From NCBI GenBank assembly GCA_027314515.1, contig DAHVAR010000060.1, positions 1-64,000 of the forward strand: a stretch of DNA of 64,000 nucleotides, in the 5' to 3' direction. Positions 1,798 through 59,712 of the stretch are shown here, piece after piece. The DNA is from Actinomycetota bacterium (GTDB lineage: Bacteria; Actinomycetota; Actinomycetes; Streptosporangiales; Streptosporangiaceae). A program made the translations under genes and the position numbers. The stretch's first letter is position 1, and each line of letters opens with the position of its first letter. The notes under the pieces are model-generated. The model searched no databases and was not told where the DNA came from. It saw only the letters and a program-made list of their open reading frames with translations.

Positions 1798-4092
1798 GTG
1801 TCTACGGTCACGCCTGTCTCCGCGCTCTCGGTCTTGAGGGCCGCGCAGCATGCGGGAGAACTCGTGCACCTAGAGCACATACCCGGCCGGGCGGGGCAAA
1901 CCACATCATGGCCGCAATCGATCCATACCGAGGTGGCTGACGCGCTCGCCGCCAGCGGTATCGAAGCCCCGTGGACACACCAGGCGCAGGCCGCGGCGCT
2001 CGCCCGCGCCGGACAGAACGTGATCATCGCCACCAGGGCAGCCTCGGGCAAATCCGCCGGATATCTCGCCGCGGCGCTGTCAGAGATACTCGACGGCGGC
2101 ACGGTGCTGTACATCGCGCCGACCAAGGCGCTCGCCGCCGACCAGTTGCAGGCGGTCCGCGCCCTCGGCGTGCCAGGAGTGCGCGCGACCTGCTACGACG
2201 GCGACTCGACCGCTGCCGACCGGGCCTGGGCACAGGCCCACGCCAACTACCTGCTGACCAACCCTGACATGCTGCACCAAGCGCTGCTGCCGAACCACAC
2301 CCGCTGGCGCGGCTTCTTCAAGCGGCTGCGCGTGGTGATCATCGACGAGTGCCACAACTACCGGGGGGTCTTCGGCTCGCACGTCGCGCAGGTGCTGCGC
2401 AGGCTGCGCCGGGTCGCCGCGCACCACAAGCCGGAAGATGGCCAGGCGGCGCCGGTCTTCGTGCTCGCCTCCGCGACGATCGCCGAGCCCGCCACGGGCG
2501 CCCGGCTGCTGACCGGCCTGGACGTAGTCGCGGTCGCCGAGGACGGCTCGCCCCGCGTGCCGCTCACGTTCGCGCTGTGGGAACCCCCGTTGCTGCACAC
2601 GCCTGGCGTTGTCAGGTCCCGCCGCGCGGCCACCGGGGAGGCGGCGGACCTGCTGGCCGCGCTGGTCAGGTCGGAGGTGCCCGCGCTCGCCTTCATCAGG
2701 TCCCGGCGCGGCGCGGAAACCGTCGCGCTCACCGCGCGCACCGCCCTCGGCAAAGGACAAGGCGACGAGGTCGCGGCATACCGGTCCGGCTACCTGGCGG
2801 ACGACCGCCGCGACCTGGAGGCCGGGCTGCGCAACGGGCGGATCACCGGCATGGCCGCCACCACCGCGCTCGAACTAGGCGTCAACATCCCCGCCCTCGA
2901 CGCGGTGCTCATCGCCGGCTGGCCTGGCACCTGGTCGTCGCTGTGGCAGCAGGCCGGCCGGGCCGGCCGCGCCGGGCGGCCCGCCACCGCGGTGTTCATC
3001 GCCCGCGACGACCCGCTCGACACGTACCTGATCCACCACCCGGACACGCTGCTGCACCATCCGCTCGAGCCGGCCGTGCTCGATCCGGCCAACCCGTACG
3101 TGCTGGCGCCGCACCTGGCCGCGGCCGCCGCCGAGCTCCCGCTGACCGACCCGGACCTTGACCTGTTCGGCCCGGCCGCCGCGACGGCCGTGAACGGCCT
3201 GACCGAGGCGGGCGAGCTCAGGAGGCGGCAGTCCGGCTGGCATCCCGCCCGCAGGGACCACCCCGCCAGGCGGATTAGCCTGCGCGGCGGGGCCGGGCGG
3301 CCGGTGCGGGTGGTGGAGGAGGAGACAGGCCGCCTGGTGGGGACGATGGACGAGCCGTCCGCGCACCGGTTCGTCCACGACGGCGCCGTCTACCTGCACC
3401 AGGGCGAGAGCTACCTGGTGGGCAAGCTGGACCTGGACGACCGGGTGGCGCTGGTGGAGTGCCGCGATCCCGGGTACAGCACCCAGGCGCGCGACATCAC
3501 CGACATCGACGTGATCGCGGAGCACCGTCACGCGCGCTGGGGCGGAGCTGACGTCGTGTTCGGCGAGGTGCGGGTGACACGGCAGGTGGTGGGGTACACA
3601 CGCGTCCGTTCCGAGTCGAAAAGGAGGGAAGCCGAGGTGGCGCTCGAGCTGCCGGAGCGAACCCTTGTCACGGCCGCTGTCTGGTGGACTATCCCGAACG
3701 ACCTCGTGGTTCCCCTCGCAGGCACCCATCTCGGCGGCGCGGCCCACGCCGCCGAGCACGCATCCATCGGCATGCTGCCGCTGCTGGCGGCGTGCGACCG
3801 CTGGGACGTGGGCGGGGTGTCCGCGGACCTGCACCCGAGCACGGGGCGGCTGACTGTCTTTGTCTACGACGGCCACGCCGGCGGAGCCGGGTTCGCCGAG
3901 CGTGGCTTCGCCACCGCGAGTCGCTGGCTGACGGCTACCGCTGATGCCATCGCCAGTTGCGATTGCACGTCCGGCTGCCCGTCGTGCATCCAGTCGCCCA
4001 AGTGCGGCAACGGCAACGAGCCGCTCACCAAGGACGGTGCGATCGCCCTCCTGCAGTGCCTGCTCGCCGGTCAGCCCGGCGATGCTGCCTGA
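1798..4092 (+). CDS. DEAD/DEAH box helicase with C-terminal DUF1998-type Cys motif (YprA/MrfA-like)
   Basis: ATRAASGKSAGYLAAALSEIL, IDECHNYRG, GRAGRAGRPATAVFIARDDPLDTYLIHHP; C-terminal CDCTSGCPSCIQSPKCGNGNEPL. Confidence 0.9.
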   Translation: MSTVTPVSALSVLRAAQHAGELVHLEHIPGRAGQTTSWPQSIHTEVADALAASGIEAPWTHQAQAAALARAGQNVIIATRAASGKSAGYLAAALSEILDGGTVLYIAPTKALAADQLQAVRALGVPGVRATCYDGDSTAADRAWAQAHANYLLTNPDMLHQALLPNHTRWRGFFKRLRVVIIDECHNYRGVFGSHVAQVLRRLRRVAAHHKPEDGQAAPVFVLASATIAEPATGARLLTGLDVVAVAEDGSPRVPLTFALWEPPLLHTPGVVRSRRAATGEAADLLAALVRSEVPALAFIRSRRGAETVALTARTALGKGQGDEVAAYRSGYLADDRRDLEAGLRNGRITGMAATTALELGVNIPALDAVLIAGWPGTWSSLWQQAGRAGRAGRPATAVFIARDDPLDTYLIHHPDTLLHHPLEPAVLDPANPYVLAPHLAAAAAELPLTDPDLDLFGPAAATAVNGLTEAGELRRRQSGWHPARRDHPARRISLRGGAGRPVRVVEEETGRLVGTMDEPSAHRFVHDGAVYLHQGESYLVGKLDLDDRVALVECRDPGYSTQARDITDIDVIAEHRHARWGGADVVFGEVRVTRQVVGYTRVRSESKRREAEVALELPERTLVTAAVWWTIPNDLVVPLAGTHLGGAAHAAEHASIGMLPLLAACDRWDVGGVSADLHPSTGRLTVFVYDGHAGGAGFAERGFATASRWLTATADAIASCDCTSGCPSCIQSPKCGNGNEPLTKDGAIALLQCLLAGQPGDAA

Positions 4093-4167
4093 CAGCCGCA
4101 GGGAAGGTAAGGGCCTGCTGTCATTGCCGCCCCGGCCTGCGCAATTACTGCGCAAAAGTGGCCAGAC

Positions 4168-4208
4168 ATGGGGCGACCCCCGTCGGGGGGGAGAACGGGG
4201 GTCGCCAT
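4168..4208 (+). terminator. Strong stem-loop just after the helicase gene (terminator or 5' domain of the ncRNA)
   Basis: ATGGGGCGACCCCCGT ... ACGGGGGTCGCCAT inverted repeat. Confidence 0.5.
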
Positions 4209-4727
4209 ACGGTCCGGCTCCGGGGGGGCAGAGCCGGGTCCGTTACCCAAGAAAGCCTAGTTGCAATCGGGGCAAGTTACCAGCGGGTCAGGCCGAAGCG
4301 CAAAGGGTTGCTGTGCCTTCCCCTTATGCTGCCGGACCGCGGGTGCATCCGTCGAGAGTACCGGGACAAACTGCAACTGTTTTCTTGCCGCGGCCAGGGG
4401 CCACCGCCAGGCCGGACGGCCGGGTTGCCCGCGGGCATGCAACCGGCTCGATCGATCGAGATAACGAATCCATCACGGCACGGGCTTCCCAAAACGACGG
4501 GGGGCCAGTACAAAGGAATCACGGGCCACTGGCCCGTACACGGAAGCCGGGTACCCACGCGCGACCAGCCGCGGGAGGCGTGCCGTGGCAGGCGAATAGT
4601 GGCGCAAAGAGCGCCGGGAGTACCAGGGCGCTCGCCATCGTCTGCCTACCACGGCAGTGTAAGGGTGCACGCTTGGTAGCCCGGTCTGACGTGTCCGTGC
4701 GACGGCGCCCCTGGCCGGGGGCGCCGT
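4209..4727 (+). ncRNA. Candidate structured non-coding RNA, possibly Ms1-like (RNA polymerase-binding RNA); boundaries approximate
   Basis: No convincing ORF across about 650 bp; dense hairpins (4209-4243; 4581-4656), a long-range closing pairing (TACCCAAG 4244-4251 with CTTGGTA 4672-4678), ends in a perfect 10-bp GC hairpin followed by TTT; neighbours match the mycobacterial Ms1 locus. Confidence 0.55.
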
Positions 4728-4730
4728 TTG
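4702..4730 (+). terminator. Intrinsic-type terminator
   Basis: ACGGCGCCCC-TGGCCG-GGGGCGCCGT then TTTG; perfect 10-bp stem. Confidence 0.75.
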
Positions 4731-4925
4731 CGGTGCGCGCCGGAATCCGTCCGGCAGCGGGCTGGCCTGCGTGCGGCTGACTTTGCCACTATCGGGGGAG
4801 CCCCGGATAATGCCGCGTCAGCGTTCGCGTGCCGCATGGCTATTGCCAAATATCGGATGCCGGCTCCTGCCGCCATTGGGGATAAGCAAGACTTTGAGTC
4901 GACAGCGTGAAACAGGGAGGTACCC

Positions 4926-5375
4926 ATGGCCGATCCCGCGGTCAGGCGCGCGGCAGCCGGCGTGACTGATCAGTCCATCGGCGATCTAGTCTCCGTGGCG
5001 GCCAGGGACGTCTCGCAACTGGTCAGATACGAGCTCGAACTTGCCAAGCTGGAACTGAAGGCCGACGCCAAGCGCCTCGGGATCGGCGCCGGGCTCGCAG
5101 TGCTCGCGATGTTCGCCGCCTGCCTGGTGCTGATGCTGCTCGCCTTCGCCTTCGCCTTCGGCCTGAACGCACTGCACGTCTGGCTGTGGGCGGCATTCCT
5201 GATCGTCGCTGGCACATGCGTTCTGATCATTGGCATCGCTGCGCTGGTCGGGCTGCGGATGGTGCGCAAGCTCGACGGGATGAGCAAGACCAGGCGCAGC
5301 CTGGCCGACGGCGTGTCGCTGCTACGCCGCGGCAAGTCCCGCAGCTCGGCCAGGGCCTCAGCTAAAGCCAGCTAG
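4926..5375 (+). CDS. Phage holin family protein (DUF1469/holin superfamily III-like membrane protein)
   Basis: SIGDLVSVAARDVSQLVRYELELAKLELKADAKRLGIGAGLAVLAMFAACLVLMLLAFAFAFGLNAL. Confidence 0.85.
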   Translation: MADPAVRRAAAGVTDQSIGDLVSVAARDVSQLVRYELELAKLELKADAKRLGIGAGLAVLAMFAACLVLMLLAFAFAFGLNALHVWLWAAFLIVAGTCVLIIGIAALVGLRMVRKLDGMSKTRRSLADGVSLLRRGKSRSSARASAKAS

Positions 5376-9883: not shown

Positions 9884-10561
9884 ATGACAGCGCCGCAGGA
9901 ACCGGCATCGCTCGCTGCTGGCACGATTACGGCAGCTCACCCGGCTGCGCAGGCTCGGGTCAGCCCGCAGGCCGACAGCCTGTTCGACCGCCGGGAGCAG
10001 CCGCTGCACGATTTCGCGATGCAGGCGGCGGCTGTCGCGGCAGCCTGCTATCAGATTGCGGCCAGGTTCCATCAGGGCGGCACGCTAGTCGTCTTCGGCA
10101 CCGGCGGGCCGAGCGCGGACGCGCAGCACGTCGCCGTCGAGTTCGTGCACCCGGTCATCGTCGGGAAGCGCGCGCTGCCGGCCATCTCGCTGACCGCCGA
10201 TATCGCGACCGTGACCGGCATCGCGGCCCGCGACGGAATGGCCGCGATCTTCAGCCATCAATTGCGTTACCTGGGAACCTCCGCCGACATCGCGCTCGGC
10301 ATCGACACCGACGGCAACTCTTCCAGCGTCCTGTCCGGCCTGCTCACGGCCCGCGAACTCGGCATGCTGACGATCGCGCTCGTCGGCGGGGACGGCGGCG
10401 CCATCGCCGCTTGTCCCGCCGTCGGCCACCTGCTGATCACCCGGTCAGCGGATCCGCGCATCGTCAGGGAACTTCAGGTGACCGCCTACCACCTGCTGTG
10501 GGAGCTAGTGCACGTGTTCCTTGAGCAGCCCGGCGTACTGGCACCGGAGGCGGGCGCATGA
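9884..10561 (+). CDS. SIS-domain protein (phosphoheptose isomerase/GmhA-like) of a hydrogenase-maturation cluster
   Basis: FHQGGTLVVFGTGGPSADAQHVAVEFVHP; IALGIDTDGNSSSVLSGLLTARELGMLTIALVGGDGG. Confidence 0.8.
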   Translation: MTAPQEPASLAAGTITAAHPAAQARVSPQADSLFDRREQPLHDFAMQAAAVAAACYQIAARFHQGGTLVVFGTGGPSADAQHVAVEFVHPVIVGKRALPAISLTADIATVTGIAARDGMAAIFSHQLRYLGTSADIALGIDTDGNSSSVLSGLLTARELGMLTIALVGGDGGAIAACPAVGHLLITRSADPRIVRELQVTAYHLLWELVHVFLEQPGVLAPEAGA

Positions 10562-10782
10562 CGAAGGCCCGGCGCGACGTTCCTGATTGCCCCGGCGAGG
10601 CATGCATCACCTGCTCGGATACGGCCGTCCAGGTAACGGTCATGCGCTTGCTCCCCGGCGGGCTCGCCCTCGTCGAGGCCGGCGGCGGCACCGGGGAAGT
10701 GAGCGTGGCGCTGGTAGCTGCCGAGGTCGGCGACAGGATCCTGGTGCACGCCGGGGAAGCGATAGCGGTGGTGCCGGCATGA
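10558..10782 (+). CDS. HypC/HupF-like small protein (divergent hydrogenase-formation chaperone)
   Basis: DCPGEACITCSDTAVQVTVMRLLPGGLALVEAGGGTGEVSVALVAAEVGDRILVHAGEAIAVV; overlaps the upstream SIS gene by 4 nt. Confidence 0.7.
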   Translation: MTKARRDVPDCPGEACITCSDTAVQVTVMRLLPGGLALVEAGGGTGEVSVALVAAEVGDRILVHAGEAIAVVPA

Positions 10783-11489
10783 CGGCACCACCGGGATCGA
10801 TCGAGTCGCTGTACCCGTTCCTTTACCAGGGCACGACAGCCGCGTCCGGGCTGCTTGACCAGGTCAGGCAGTCGACGATCGCCAAGACGGCGGAGATACT
10901 CAGCCTGCGCCGGGCCGTGCGGGACGCCATGGCAGGCCAGTTGCTGGCCTGCGCGCGGGAGATGGCCAGGCGGTTCGCTGCGGACGGCCGGCTGCTGGCC
11001 TTCGGCAACGGCGGCAGCGCAACCGATGCGCAGCAGCTTGCCACCCTCTTCCTGTACCCCGGCGGGACTGCCAGGCCATTGCCAGCGCTCAGTCTCGCCA
11101 GCGACGCGGCGGTGCTGACCGCCCTCAGTAACGACATCGGCGTCGACGTCGTCTTCGCCCGGCAGCTGGCTGCGTTCGGCGGCAAGTCCGACATCGCCGT
11201 GGGGCTGTCGACCAGCGGCAATTCCGAGAACCTGCTGCGCGCCCTTGACGAGGCCAGCAGGCGCGGCATGCTCACGGTGGGTTTCGCCGGCTACGCCGGC
11301 GGCAAGATGGCCGAGCTGGACAGCATGGACTATCTGTTCGTCGCGCCATCCACATCCGTGCATCGCATCCAGGAAGCCCAGACCACGATGGGCAACATCC
11401 TCTGGGAGCTGTGTCAGGACGCACTGAGCGGCAGCGCCGGCCTGGAGACACCGAAGGAGCAGGCTCATGTGCCTCGGCATTCCCGGTGA
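10779..11489 (+). CDS. SIS-domain protein, second copy (GmhA-like)
   Basis: LLAFGNGGSATDAQQLATLFLYP; IAVGLSTSGNSENLLRALDEASRRGMLTVGFAGYAGG; ATG at 10779. Confidence 0.85.
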   Translation: MTAPPGSIESLYPFLYQGTTAASGLLDQVRQSTIAKTAEILSLRRAVRDAMAGQLLACAREMARRFAADGRLLAFGNGGSATDAQQLATLFLYPGGTARPLPALSLASDAAVLTALSNDIGVDVVFARQLAAFGGKSDIAVGLSTSGNSENLLRALDEASRRGMLTVGFAGYAGGKMAELDSMDYLFVAPSTSVHRIQEAQTTMGNILWELCQDALSGSAGLETPKEQAHVPRHSR

Positions 11490-11739
11490 GGTGATCGAGT
11501 TCCTGCCCGGCCAGGCAGACCTGGCCAAGGTCAATGTGAGCGGAGTCAAGCGGGTCATCAACGTCGGCTTGCTCGCCGGTGATCAGATCGAGCCGGGAGA
11601 CTGGGTACTCATCCATGTCGGGTTCGCGCTGTCGAAGATCGACGAGACCGAGGCCGCCGCGACAATGCGGTTCCTCGCCGCGATCGGCCAGGCGTACGAA
11701 GACGAACTCGCTGCCCTGGCCGACTCACGGATCGAGTAG
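11467..11739 (+). CDS. hypC: Hydrogenase formation chaperone HypC
   Basis: MCLGIPGEVIEFLPGQADLAKVNVSGVKRVINVGLLAGDQIEPGDWVLIHVGFALSKIDETEA. Confidence 0.95.
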   Translation: MCLGIPGEVIEFLPGQADLAKVNVSGVKRVINVGLLAGDQIEPGDWVLIHVGFALSKIDETEAAATMRFLAAIGQAYEDELAALADSRIE

Positions 11740-11770
11740 GCATACCCGGATCGAGCAGGCAGGAGCAGCG

Positions 11771-12898
11771 ATGAAGTTCGTCGACGAGTTCCGTGACTCC
11801 GGCAAGGCACGCGCACTCGCCGTCCGGATCGCCGCCCTCTGCGAGCCTGGCCGGCAGTACAAGCTCATGGAAGTGTGCGGCGGCCACACTCACACGATCT
11901 ACAAGCACGGCCTGCAGGACTACCTGCCCGAGCAGGTGACGCTGGTTCACGGCCCCGGTTGCCCGGTCTGCGTGATCCCGATGGGCCGGGTAGACGACGC
12001 GATGGCCATCGCCAGCCAGCCGGGCGTCATCCTGACGTCATTTGGCGACATGATGCGCGTCCCCGGCAGCGACGGATCGTTCTTCGATGCCAAAGCTCGC
12101 GGCAGCGACATCCGCATGGTCTACTCGCCGCTCGACGCGCTCAAGATCGCCCGGCAGAATCCGGACAAGCACGTGGTCTTCATGGCTATCGGGTTCGAGA
12201 CGACCGCGCCGTCTACCGCCATGACGGTGTTGCGTGCCGCCGCTGAGGGCTTGCCGAACTTCTCGGTGTTCTGCAATCACGTCACGATCATCCCGGCGAT
12301 CAAGGCCATCCTCGATTCGCCCGACCTGCGCCTTGATGGCTTCATCGGGCCCGGTCATGTGTCCGTGGTGATCGGTTGCCGGCCGTATGAATTCATCGCC
12401 CGCGACCACGGAAAGCCCGTCGTCGTGGCCGGCTTCGAGCCGCTCGATATCCTGCAGTCGATCTACCTGCTGATGCTGCAGCTGTCCCGCGGGCAGGCGG
12501 TGATCGAGAACCAGTACTCCCGCGTCGTTTCCCTGGACGGGAATCCGGCGGCGCTGCGCGCCATCGGGCAGACCATGGAGCTGCGCCCCTACTTCGAGTG
12601 GCGCGGGCTCGGGTTCATCTCTTACTCCGCGCTGAAAGTCCGGGATGCCTACGCGAGGTTCGATGCCGAGGCGCTGTTCTCCGTGCCGGGCATCCGGGTC
12701 GCCGACCCCACGGCATGCCAATGCGGCGAAGTGCTGAAAGGCGTGCTCAAGCCGTGGGAGTGCAAGGTATTCGGCACCGCGTGCACGCCGGAGACGCCGA
12801 TCGGCACGTGCATGGTCTCGCCGGAAGGCGCCTGTGCCGCGTATTACAACTACGGCCGGCTCACCCGGCGCCGGGTCAGCGAGGCGAGCGCCCGGTGA
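11771..12898 (+). CDS. hypD: Hydrogenase formation protein HypD
   Basis: MKFVDEFRDSGKARALAVRIAAL, MEVCGGHTHTIYKHGLQDYLP, VHGPGCPVCVIPMGR. Confidence 0.95.
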   Translation: MKFVDEFRDSGKARALAVRIAALCEPGRQYKLMEVCGGHTHTIYKHGLQDYLPEQVTLVHGPGCPVCVIPMGRVDDAMAIASQPGVILTSFGDMMRVPGSDGSFFDAKARGSDIRMVYSPLDALKIARQNPDKHVVFMAIGFETTAPSTAMTVLRAAAEGLPNFSVFCNHVTIIPAIKAILDSPDLRLDGFIGPGHVSVVIGCRPYEFIARDHGKPVVVAGFEPLDILQSIYLLMLQLSRGQAVIENQYSRVVSLDGNPAALRAIGQTMELRPYFEWRGLGFISYSALKVRDAYARFDAEALFSVPGIRVADPTACQCGEVLKGVLKPWECKVFGTACTPETPIGTCMVSPEGACAAYYNYGRLTRRRVSEASAR

Positions 12899-56751: not shown

Positions 56752-59712
56752 TCAGCCGTCCTGCTCATCCCCGGCAGCAGCCCTTTTGGCTGGCCTGCTC
56801 GCCTTGGCGGCGCCGGTCTTTACTGTGCCGGTCTTTACCGCAGTTCGCGCCTTCCTGGTTGCGCCAGTTCTGGCGGTGCCAGCCTTGGCGGTGCCAGCCT
56901 TGGCGGTACCTGCCGCAGACGGCCGGCCCGACCCGGCCGACCTGGCGGCTGGCTTCCGCTTAGCCGTCGGCGCCGCCGCGCGCCGCTCCGCGAGCAGTTC
57001 GACCGCACGTTGCGGCGTGATCGACTCGATCGCGTCGCCCTTACGCAACGAGGCGTTAGTCTCCCCGTCCGTCACATACGGCCCGAACCGGCCCTCGCGC
57101 AGCACGATCGGCTTGCCGCTGGCCGGGTCGTCACCCAGTTCCCGCAGTGGCGGCGCCGCGGCGGCGCGCGCCGCCCGGCCGCGCGGCTTGGGCTGTGCGA
57201 GCAGTGCCTTTGCTTCGTCCAGGGTGATGGTGAACATCTGCTCTTCGGACTCAAGCGACCGGCTTTCCGCGCCTCTTTTGACATACGGGCCGTAACGGCC
57301 GTTCTGCACGGTGACCGGCTCGCCGTCCAGGTCGCCGAGCGTGCGCGGCAGGGTGAGCAGCCGGAGCGCGTCGTCGAGCGTCACGCTGTCCAGGTCCATC
57401 GACTTCAGCAGCGAGGCAGTGCGCGGCTTGGCGGCCGCTGTGCCCGTAGCGGTCTCGTCAAGTACCTCGGTCACGTACGGGCCGAACCGGCCCGCCTTGG
57501 CGACGATCGTCTTGCCGGTTTCCGGGTCCGAGCCGAGGATCTTGTCCCCGCTCGGCCGGTCGAGCAACTCAACGGCGTAATCGGGCGTCAGCTCGTCTGG
57601 CGCGGTGCCCTCCGGCACGTTGACCCGCTGGCCTTCGCGCTCCAGGTACGGGCCATACCGGCCGACCCGCACCACGATGTCGGTGCCTGCCAGCGGGAAC
57701 GAGCTGACGTCACGTGCGTCGATTTCGCTCAGGTCGCTGACCATCTCCTTCAGGCCCTCTTCGCCGTCCGCGCCGAAATAGAACCGGCGCAGCCAGGGCA
57801 CGCGCTCGGCCTGCCCGTTGGCGATATCGTCGAGCGCGTCCTCCATCTTGGCCGTGAACTCGTAGTCCACCAGGTGCGCGAAGTGCCGCTCCAGCAGCGT
57901 CACCACTGCGAACGCGACGAACGACGGGACCAGGGCAGAGCCCTTCTTGAACACGTAGCCCCGGTCCAGGATCGTGCCGATGATCGAGGCGTACGTTGAC
58001 GGCCTGCCAATCGCGCGGTCCTCAAGCTCCTTGATCAGCGTCGCCTCGGTGAACCTGGCCGGAGGCCTGGTTGCGTGCTCGGCAGACTCCAGGCCGAGCG
58101 CGCGCAGCGGCTCCTGCTCGGTCAGCGGCGGCAGCCGGCGCTGGTTGTCATCAAGCTCGGCGTCGGGGTCGTCCGACCCCTCAACGTAGGCCTTCAGGAA
58201 GCCGTGGAAGCTGATGACCTTGCCCGATGCGCCAAACTCAGCCTCACGGCCGGGAACGCTGCTCGTCCCGCCGGCCACCCCAGCCTGGCCAGCCAGGGCA
58301 GGCTGGCCGGGCTCCCCGACCGCGATCGGCTGGCGCGCGTCGGTCTCGCCCAGCACGCGCACCGAGACCGATTCGCCGGTCGCGTCCTTCATCTGCGAGG
58401 CTACGGTCCGCTTCCACACCAGCTCATACAGGCGCAGTTCGTCCCCGGATAGCCCGGACTGGGCCGGCGTCCTGAATTCGTCGCCGGCCGGGCGGATCGC
58501 CTCGTGCGCTTCCTGCGCGCTCTTGACCTTGCTGTCGTAGGTGCGCGGCGCATCCGGCACGTACTCGGCGCCGTACAACTGCCTGGCCTGCGTCCTGGCC
58601 GCGTTCAGCGCGGTTTGCGAGAGCGTGACGGAGTCGGTCCGCATATAGGTGATGTGACCGTTCTCGTACAGCCGCTGCGCCACCTGCATCGTGTACTTGG
58701 CCGAGAAGCCGAGCTTCCTCGACGCCTCCTGCTGCAGCGTGGTGGTGCGGAACGGCGCATACGGCGACCGCCGGTACGGCTTGCGCTCTACCGACTTCAC
58801 GCTGAACGCCGCGCTCGCAAGCCGGTCACGCAGGGCGCCGGCAGCGGCGCGGTCCAGGTGCAAGAGCCGGCCGCGACCGTCCTCTCCGGACGCGTCGCCG
58901 CCGCGAAGCTCGCCGACGGAGCTGAAGTCACGGCCCTGCGCCACCCGGCGTCCGTCGACCGACACCAGCGTCGCGTTGAACGACGTCACGTCGCCAGCCG
59001 CTTCGAGCTCCGCCTCGGCGGCGGCCTTGGCGAACTCGGCCTCCAGATCCCAGTACTCCGCTGGCCGGAACGCGATTCGCTCCCGTTCCCGGTCCACTAC
59101 CAGCCGGACCGCAACCGACTGGACACGGCCGGCCGAAAGCTGCGGCATGACCTTCTTCCACAGCACCGGCGACAGCTCGTAGCCATACAGCCGGTCGAGC
59201 ACGCGCCTGGTCTGGTAAGCCTCGACCAGGCCCTGGTCGACGTCTCGCGGCGACGCGACCGCCTGCGCTATCGCCTCCGGCGTGATCTCGTGGAACACCA
59301 TGCGCTTGGCTGGCACCCTGGGCTTCAGCTCTTCCATCAGGTGCCAGGCGATGGCCTCGCCCTCGCGGTCCTCGTCAGTGGCGAGCAGCAGTTCGTCGGC
59401 GTCCTTCAGCAGCTGCTTGAGCTTGGTGACTTGCTGCTTCTTGTCCGAGTTGACGACGTACAGCGGCTCGAAGTCATGGTCGACGTCGACGCCGAGCCGG
59501 GCCCAGGATTCGCCGCGATACTTCATCGGGATCTCGGCTGCCTTATCTGGCATGTCACGTATATGGCCAATGCTGGACTCAACGGTGTAGCCCTTGCCGA
59601 GGAAGCCCGCGATCGTCCGCGCCTTCCGCGGCGACTCGACGATGACGAGCTTGTTGCCGCCGCCCGCTGCCGCTTTCCGACGGCCGGCGGATTGCTCGGT
59701 CCCTGCTGCCAC
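56752..59712 (-). CDS. topA: DNA topoisomerase I
   Basis: KLVIVESPRKARTIAGFLGKGYTVESSIGHIRDMP, TDEDREGEAIAWHL, ITYMRTDSVTLS; Lys/Ala/Thr-rich basic tail. Confidence 0.95.
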   Translation of the reverse strand: MAAGTEQSAGRRKAAAGGGNKLVIVESPRKARTIAGFLGKGYTVESSIGHIRDMPDKAAEIPMKYRGESWARLGVDVDHDFEPLYVVNSDKKQQVTKLKQLLKDADELLLATDEDREGEAIAWHLMEELKPRVPAKRMVFHEITPEAIAQAVASPRDVDQGLVEAYQTRRVLDRLYGYELSPVLWKKVMPQLSAGRVQSVAVRLVVDRERERIAFRPAEYWDLEAEFAKAAAEAELEAAGDVTSFNATLVSVDGRRVAQGRDFSSVGELRGGDASGEDGRGRLLHLDRAAAGALRDRLASAAFSVKSVERKPYRRSPYAPFRTTTLQQEASRKLGFSAKYTMQVAQRLYENGHITYMRTDSVTLSQTALNAARTQARQLYGAEYVPDAPRTYDSKVKSAQEAHEAIRPAGDEFRTPAQSGLSGDELRLYELVWKRTVASQMKDATGESVSVRVLGETDARQPIAVGEPGQPALAGQAGVAGGTSSVPGREAEFGASGKVISFHGFLKAYVEGSDDPDAELDDNQRRLPPLTEQEPLRALGLESAEHATRPPARFTEATLIKELEDRAIGRPSTYASIIGTILDRGYVFKKGSALVPSFVAFAVVTLLERHFAHLVDYEFTAKMEDALDDIANGQAERVPWLRRFYFGADGEEGLKEMVSDLSEIDARDVSSFPLAGTDIVVRVGRYGPYLEREGQRVNVPEGTAPDELTPDYAVELLDRPSGDKILGSDPETGKTIVAKAGRFGPYVTEVLDETATGTAAAKPRTASLLKSMDLDSVTLDDALRLLTLPRTLGDLDGEPVTVQNGRYGPYVKRGAESRSLESEEQMFTITLDEAKALLAQPKPRGRAARAAAAPPLRELGDDPASGKPIVLREGRFGPYVTDGETNASLRKGDAIESITPQRAVELLAERRAAAPTAKRKPAARSAGSGRPSAAGTAKAGTAKAGTARTGATRKARTAVKTGTVKTGAAKASRPAKRAAAGDEQDG

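Follow-up and report, generated by a model that had tools for sequence, protein, structure and literature searches.

The window, by which is meant the whole 64,000-nucleotide stretch of DNA analysed here, carries a gap between a helicase gene ending at 4092 and a holin gene starting at 4926, and the question raised by this locus is what the gap encodes. A preliminary description had proposed an interval of about 650 bp without a credible reading frame, holding a candidate, possibly longer Ms1-like RNA. The gap measures 833 bp and contains no supported gene. The helicase on its left belongs to the 'helicase/secretion neighborhood' family (TIGR03817), and the other neighbours are a holin-superfamily protein, an alpha/beta hydrolase and MarP, in agreement with the genes named earlier. 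Neither ssd nor a HAD hydrolase gene is found in the window. The gap is occupied by two divergently oriented RNA genes separated by ~280 bp, a 6C RNA on the minus strand and an Ms1-type RNA on the plus strand (Table 1). A single transcript over 4168-4730 is ruled out, its first part being 6C on the opposite strand. The plus-strand RNA is an orthologue of Ms1, as evident from its position, promoter, core sequence and covarying structure. The reading as a whole, namely 6C at 4168-4244 and a divergent Ms1 orthologue at ~4521-4732 that would bind core RNA polymerase as its published counterparts do, is considered very probable. Farther out, two reading frames at 766-1728, left of the helicase, resemble by eye an anti-sigma kinase and a STAS-type anti-sigma antagonist; those at 9884-12898, right of nth, resemble SIS-domain isomerases followed by HypC- and HypD-like hydrogenase maturation proteins, again by eye.

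Table 1. Coordinates of the RNA genes and their elements in the helicase-holin gap
Feature	Position	Strand	Evidence
6C RNA (RF01066), two C-loop hairpins, leftward transcription	4168-4244	-	58.8 bits, gathering score 47
-35-like TTCCCA of Ms1 promoter	4486-4491	+	paired-motif search upstream of homologues
-10-like TACAAA of Ms1 promoter	4509-4514	+	AGTACAAAGGAATCACGG here versus AGTACAAAGGAACCACGG at mycobacterial Ms1
Ms1-type RNA, ~212 nt (model core 4521-4696 plus terminator)	~4521-4732	+	model R1 102.6 bits, fold z -4.22, covariation, position
5' hairpin ACGGGCC-ACT-GGCCCGT	4521-4537	+	fold; 5/5 modelled pairs vary on both sides (wide alignment)
Closing rod, 5' strand, with invariant strip GTACCCACGCG (4551-4561)	4538-4566	+	fold, conservation, covariation
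Conserved hairpin GCC-GCGGGA-GGC	4568-4579	+	99.5% of cells paired; 2/3 pairs vary on both sides
Variable hairpin, ~45 nt longer than in compact members of the order	4581-4656	+	alignment and fold
Closing rod, 3' strand, with invariant strip GTGCACGCTTGGTARCC	4664-4692	+	fold, conservation, covariation
Intrinsic terminator, 10-bp stem 4702-4711 / 4718-4727, short T run	4702-4730	+	stem kept in relatives with compensatory changes

The minus-strand RNA is a clear member of the 6C family, scoring above the gathering cut-off of RF01066. The hairpins at 4168-4208 and 4209-4243, described before as part of the long plus-strand RNA, both exist; they belong, however, to this one minus-strand 6C RNA, which is a separate RNA outside the Ms1-type transcript. 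A 6C RNA also stands at the corresponding place in mycobacteria-like, Streptomyces-like and other relatives, where the first two labels are inferred partly from Rfam matches and synteny. Beyond 6C, the rest of the interval gives no Rfam match at gathering score. Weak matches to npcTB_6715 (4318-4478, minus strand) and cold-seep-1 (4239-4366, plus strand) fall far under their own cut-offs and were rejected.

The fold of the full span 4244-4730 is weakly better than chance (z -1.81; 6 of 100 shuffles equally good), while none of 200 shuffles folds as well as the corrected RNA at 4520-4732. A compact homologue adopts a similar fold (z -6.27; 0/200 shuffles equally good). The start of the RNA was set at A4521 by analogy with mycobacterial Ms1, whose model opens at the corresponding base. 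The perfect 10-bp terminator stem at 4702-4727 recognised earlier is present and ends the Ms1-like RNA, and the long arm TGCCGTGG...CCACGGCA is recovered as the variable hairpin. The closing pairing proposed between 4244-4251 and 4672-4684 is complementary, but the conserved stem joins the two rod strands of Table 1, and the partner of the 3' strand CTTGGTA-GCCCGG is CCGGGTACC at 4548-4556, in a strongly covarying fold. Furthermore, six relatives (G005, G007, G008, G027, G019 and G036) have a ~700-bp HAD gene in the space between the end of 6C and the RNA. The ~420-nt closing stem is thus ruled out, its 3' strand covarying with another partner and the HAD gene intervening in relatives. The suggestion of a possibly longer Ms1 also falls away, the RNA measuring ~212 nt against ~304 nt for mycobacterial Ms1 and lying near the 228 nt of scr3559.

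The structure of the Ms1-type RNA was followed across relatives by alignment. When 4244-4740 was searched at the DNA level against 60 relatives, 40 gave a match, and the regions conserved at distance were 4508-4593 and 4664-4731 of the window. An alignment of 31 loci displays a promoter-like pair, the 5' hairpin, two near-invariant strips, the variable hairpin and the terminator. Standard pairs fill 85% of cells in a 28-sequence alignment as compared to 32-35% with the partners slid, and 20/45 pairs show changes on both sides. When Streptomyces-like and mycobacteria-like members were added, these values became 87.5% against 29-40% and 34/45; this wider alignment was fitted to the model, which biases its numbers upwards, the structure itself was derived from one of the sequences, and the count of 34 still includes the antisense R1 matches in L088 and L014. 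Those matches (E 0.004-0.01) were attributed to the rod's own symmetry and omitted from the conservation table. An RNAalifold consensus obtained with no structure supplied recovered the outer stem, the 5' hairpin and the terminator as well, and compensatory changes are seen in them. The predicted fold and its covariation thus give the long hairpin, internal open region and short hairpins near the ends that characterise Ms1; the central pairs say nothing for or against pairing because they are invariant.

The same observations bear on whether the region could be a spacer that is not transcribed, or a decayed protein-coding gene, for example that of the lost HAD hydrolase. Some reading frames are open here and close relatives carry a HAD gene between 6C and the RNA, as such a reading would expect. 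Against it, tblastn at E up to 10 detected no HAD remnant in the spacer, and the HAD gene and the RNA co-occur in G005, G007, G008 and G027. The covarying structure and the conserved promoter and terminator also argue against decay, which is extremely improbable.

An Ms1 orthologue with its own promoter is further indicated by the upstream sequence. The pair TTYCS-N17-TASAAA occurs upstream of 23 of 56 homologues; the mean for shuffled sequence is 0.01 of 56. The -10 and start region, AGTACAAAGGAAYCACGG, is almost the same as that of mycobacterial Ms1, whose model starts at the A of ACGG. With promoter and terminator both conserved, the predicted transcript falls within the 200-300 nt of Ms1 RNAs, which have their own promoter and terminator. 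In the form TTYCCA-N17-TASAAAGG, the same departure of the -10 element from the primary-sigma consensus is seen in mycobacteria-like, Streptomyces-like and Streptosporangiaceae genomes.

The identity of the RNA was also approached with covariance models. Model R1, built from the window's relatives only, with no mycobacterial or Streptomyces-like sequences, matches the window RNA and falls inside the RF02566 Ms1 in mycobacteria-like genomes (L091, L092 and L095; E 1e-6 to 5e-6 over 52 kb). R1 recovers the Streptomyces-like RNA as well. A broader model, R2, lies inside RF02566 matches in all 18 of the Mycobacteriaceae-like genomes that it matches, 17 of which were not in training. RF02566 itself (gathering cut-off 162 bits) gives no match in the window or in the window's genome, G000. 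Weak RF02566 matches coincide with the R1 position in two further genomes, G209 and G256. It exceeds the cut-off in 28/397 genomes of the class; its matches number 43 among the same 397 genomes and nearly all fall in one family, so that the RF02566 model is narrow. The distance from promoter to terminator in the Streptomyces-like homologues is 225-230 nt, as compared to 228 nt for scr3559 by its RACE ends. A published scr3559 primer matches exactly, over the 17 nt of its 3' end, at the promoter of a Streptomyces-like homologue. The proposal of an Ms1 homologue is therefore supported by synteny, covariance models, promoter identity and covariation.

Gene order at ssd, 6C, HAD and Ms1 has been used to define and find Ms1 (PMC9130861). 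Many relatives of the window display the order ssd, 6C (minus), HAD-IB (plus) and the RNA (plus), often with an acetyl-CoA synthetase beyond. 6C adjoins the RNA divergently in the window, and relatives of the same genus and family-level group keep the HAD gene between the two. That gene is missing from between 6C and the RNA in G000, G006, G001, G002 and G003, and a search for a HAD orthologue elsewhere in the bin gave only a 37% match on another contig. In most species the HAD gene is a marker of Ms1; its absence, and that of ssd, from the window is read as lineage loss, and synteny with the relatives bears out the earlier view that intervening genes had been lost. Streptosporangiaceae are already in the published Ms1 list (PMC9130861), and the window RNA is therefore a further member of a known family; its closest copies lie in uncultivated Streptosporangiaceae MAGs. 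The window is distinctive in its layout lacking the HAD gene and in its enlarged variable hairpin.

The R1 model places the RNA in 131 of the 151 genomes of the order and in 141/397 genomes of the class. There is one copy per genome in the order, except in the window's own bin and in G521, where a weak second match (G521:C3:603764-603882, E 7e-4) is a paralogue or a chance hit. R2 covered 389 genomes of the phylum and recovers the RNA in 53, of which 11 lie outside class Actinomycetes, in three family-level groups; 7 of these 11 were included in the training of R2, and G530, G545, G610 and G620 are the independent cases. A HAD-IB gene lies within ~5 kb of the RNA in 10 of the 11 (the exception is L131) and in three of the four independent cases. 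The loci concerned are L122-L128 and L131-L134. What is new here is the shared core, the shared promoter and the reach beyond class Actinomycetes. It appears likely, on balance, that Ms1 is one ancient family, described by a single covariance model with a near-invariant two-strand core, which reaches at least three further family-level groups beyond Actinomycetes, usually beside HAD-IB, and whose core would bind core RNA polymerase.

The assembly calls for caution at 6C. The window matches G006 at 93-98% identity from ~4250 onwards, whereas before ~4250 the identity is only 52-81%, and its helicase has 79-87% protein identity to the helicases of G005, G007 and G008. The mirror pattern is found on contig C146, which is in the same bin, with 90-98% identity to G006 up to 6C and ~72-74% thereafter. 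The probable cause is a cross-join, at a nearly identical 6C stretch, between two related organisms of the bin, and the first ~4.2 kb of the window may come from another species; natural recombination at 6C is a possible alternative. A second copy of 6C and the Ms1-type RNA lies at the end of that contig (G000:C146:58658-59288, within a mosaic tract at 58658-59320), its Ms1 part 75% identical, and the helicase ahead of it is 62-63% identical to that of the window. This copy is probably no true duplication but the other half of the cross-join. The order helicase, 6C, RNA and holin is the same in G006, and the conclusion on Ms1 is therefore independent of the cross-join.

By analogy with the RNAs described from M. 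smegmatis, M. tuberculosis and S. coelicolor, the Ms1-type RNA would accumulate as growth slows and be abundant in stationary phase. Its fold would be, as described for other Ms1 RNAs, a long rod that opens into a bubble-like centre, and it would bind core RNA polymerase without the primary sigma factor, as has been shown for the M. smegmatis and S. coelicolor RNAs. The polymerase so bound may serve as a store for regrowth. The invariant strips, 4551-4561 and 4664-4681, form the centre of the rod, and they are the putative polymerase contact because an M. smegmatis Ms1 variant devoid of the central bubble had much reduced polymerase binding.

Two other functions were weighed against this proposal. 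An Ms1-derived structured RNA could occupy the Ms1 place and have a different job, with no polymerase binding in this order; the shorter length compared with mycobacterial Ms1 and the enlarged variable hairpin are in keeping with that. The reading is nevertheless improbable, as the core strips and the promoter are conserved in common with mycobacteria-like and Streptomyces-like genomes, whose RNA is known to bind core polymerase. A 6S RNA binding the polymerase holoenzyme would likewise be a rod with a central open region and of similar size, and 6S-like claims have been made for scr3559. The 6S covariance model (RF00013), however, is absent from the matches at E up to 5 in the 3800-5000 region, and the homologous scr3559 and Ms1 favour polymerase without the primary sigma factor, so that a 6S RNA can hardly be entertained. 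An Ms1 orthologue binding core RNA polymerase thus remains the preferred reading.

As compared to known systems, the likeness to 6S RNA is in working only, that of a polymerase-binding rod with a central bubble; Ms1 binds core polymerase, whereas 6S binds the holoenzyme. With mycobacterial Ms1 / MTS2823 (RF02566), the window RNA shares the place beside 6C, a near-identical -10 and start, the two core strips, the outer rod and the 5' hairpin; it differs in its shorter length, in its middle part and in the loss of the adjoining HAD and ssd genes, and it escapes RF02566. With scr3559, the S. coelicolor Ms1 (PMC9130861, PMC11077062), it shares a similar length, the core strips and the promoter type, while scr3559 has a longer 5' domain and keeps HAD, the Streptomyces-like genomes having a 6C and HAD neighbourhood. 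Ms1 has been described as conserved so weakly that relatives were found via gene annotations and not by RNA homology (PMC9130861). The window RNA acts as a bridge, since a model from its relatives reaches both the Streptomyces-like and the mycobacterial Ms1 and exposes the invariant core and the common promoter. The model shows that Ms1 RNAs which match one another poorly have a single conserved core in common over much of the phylum, and offers a short list of bases to mutate in asking how Ms1 holds core RNA polymerase, together with a better search model than the current Rfam entry.
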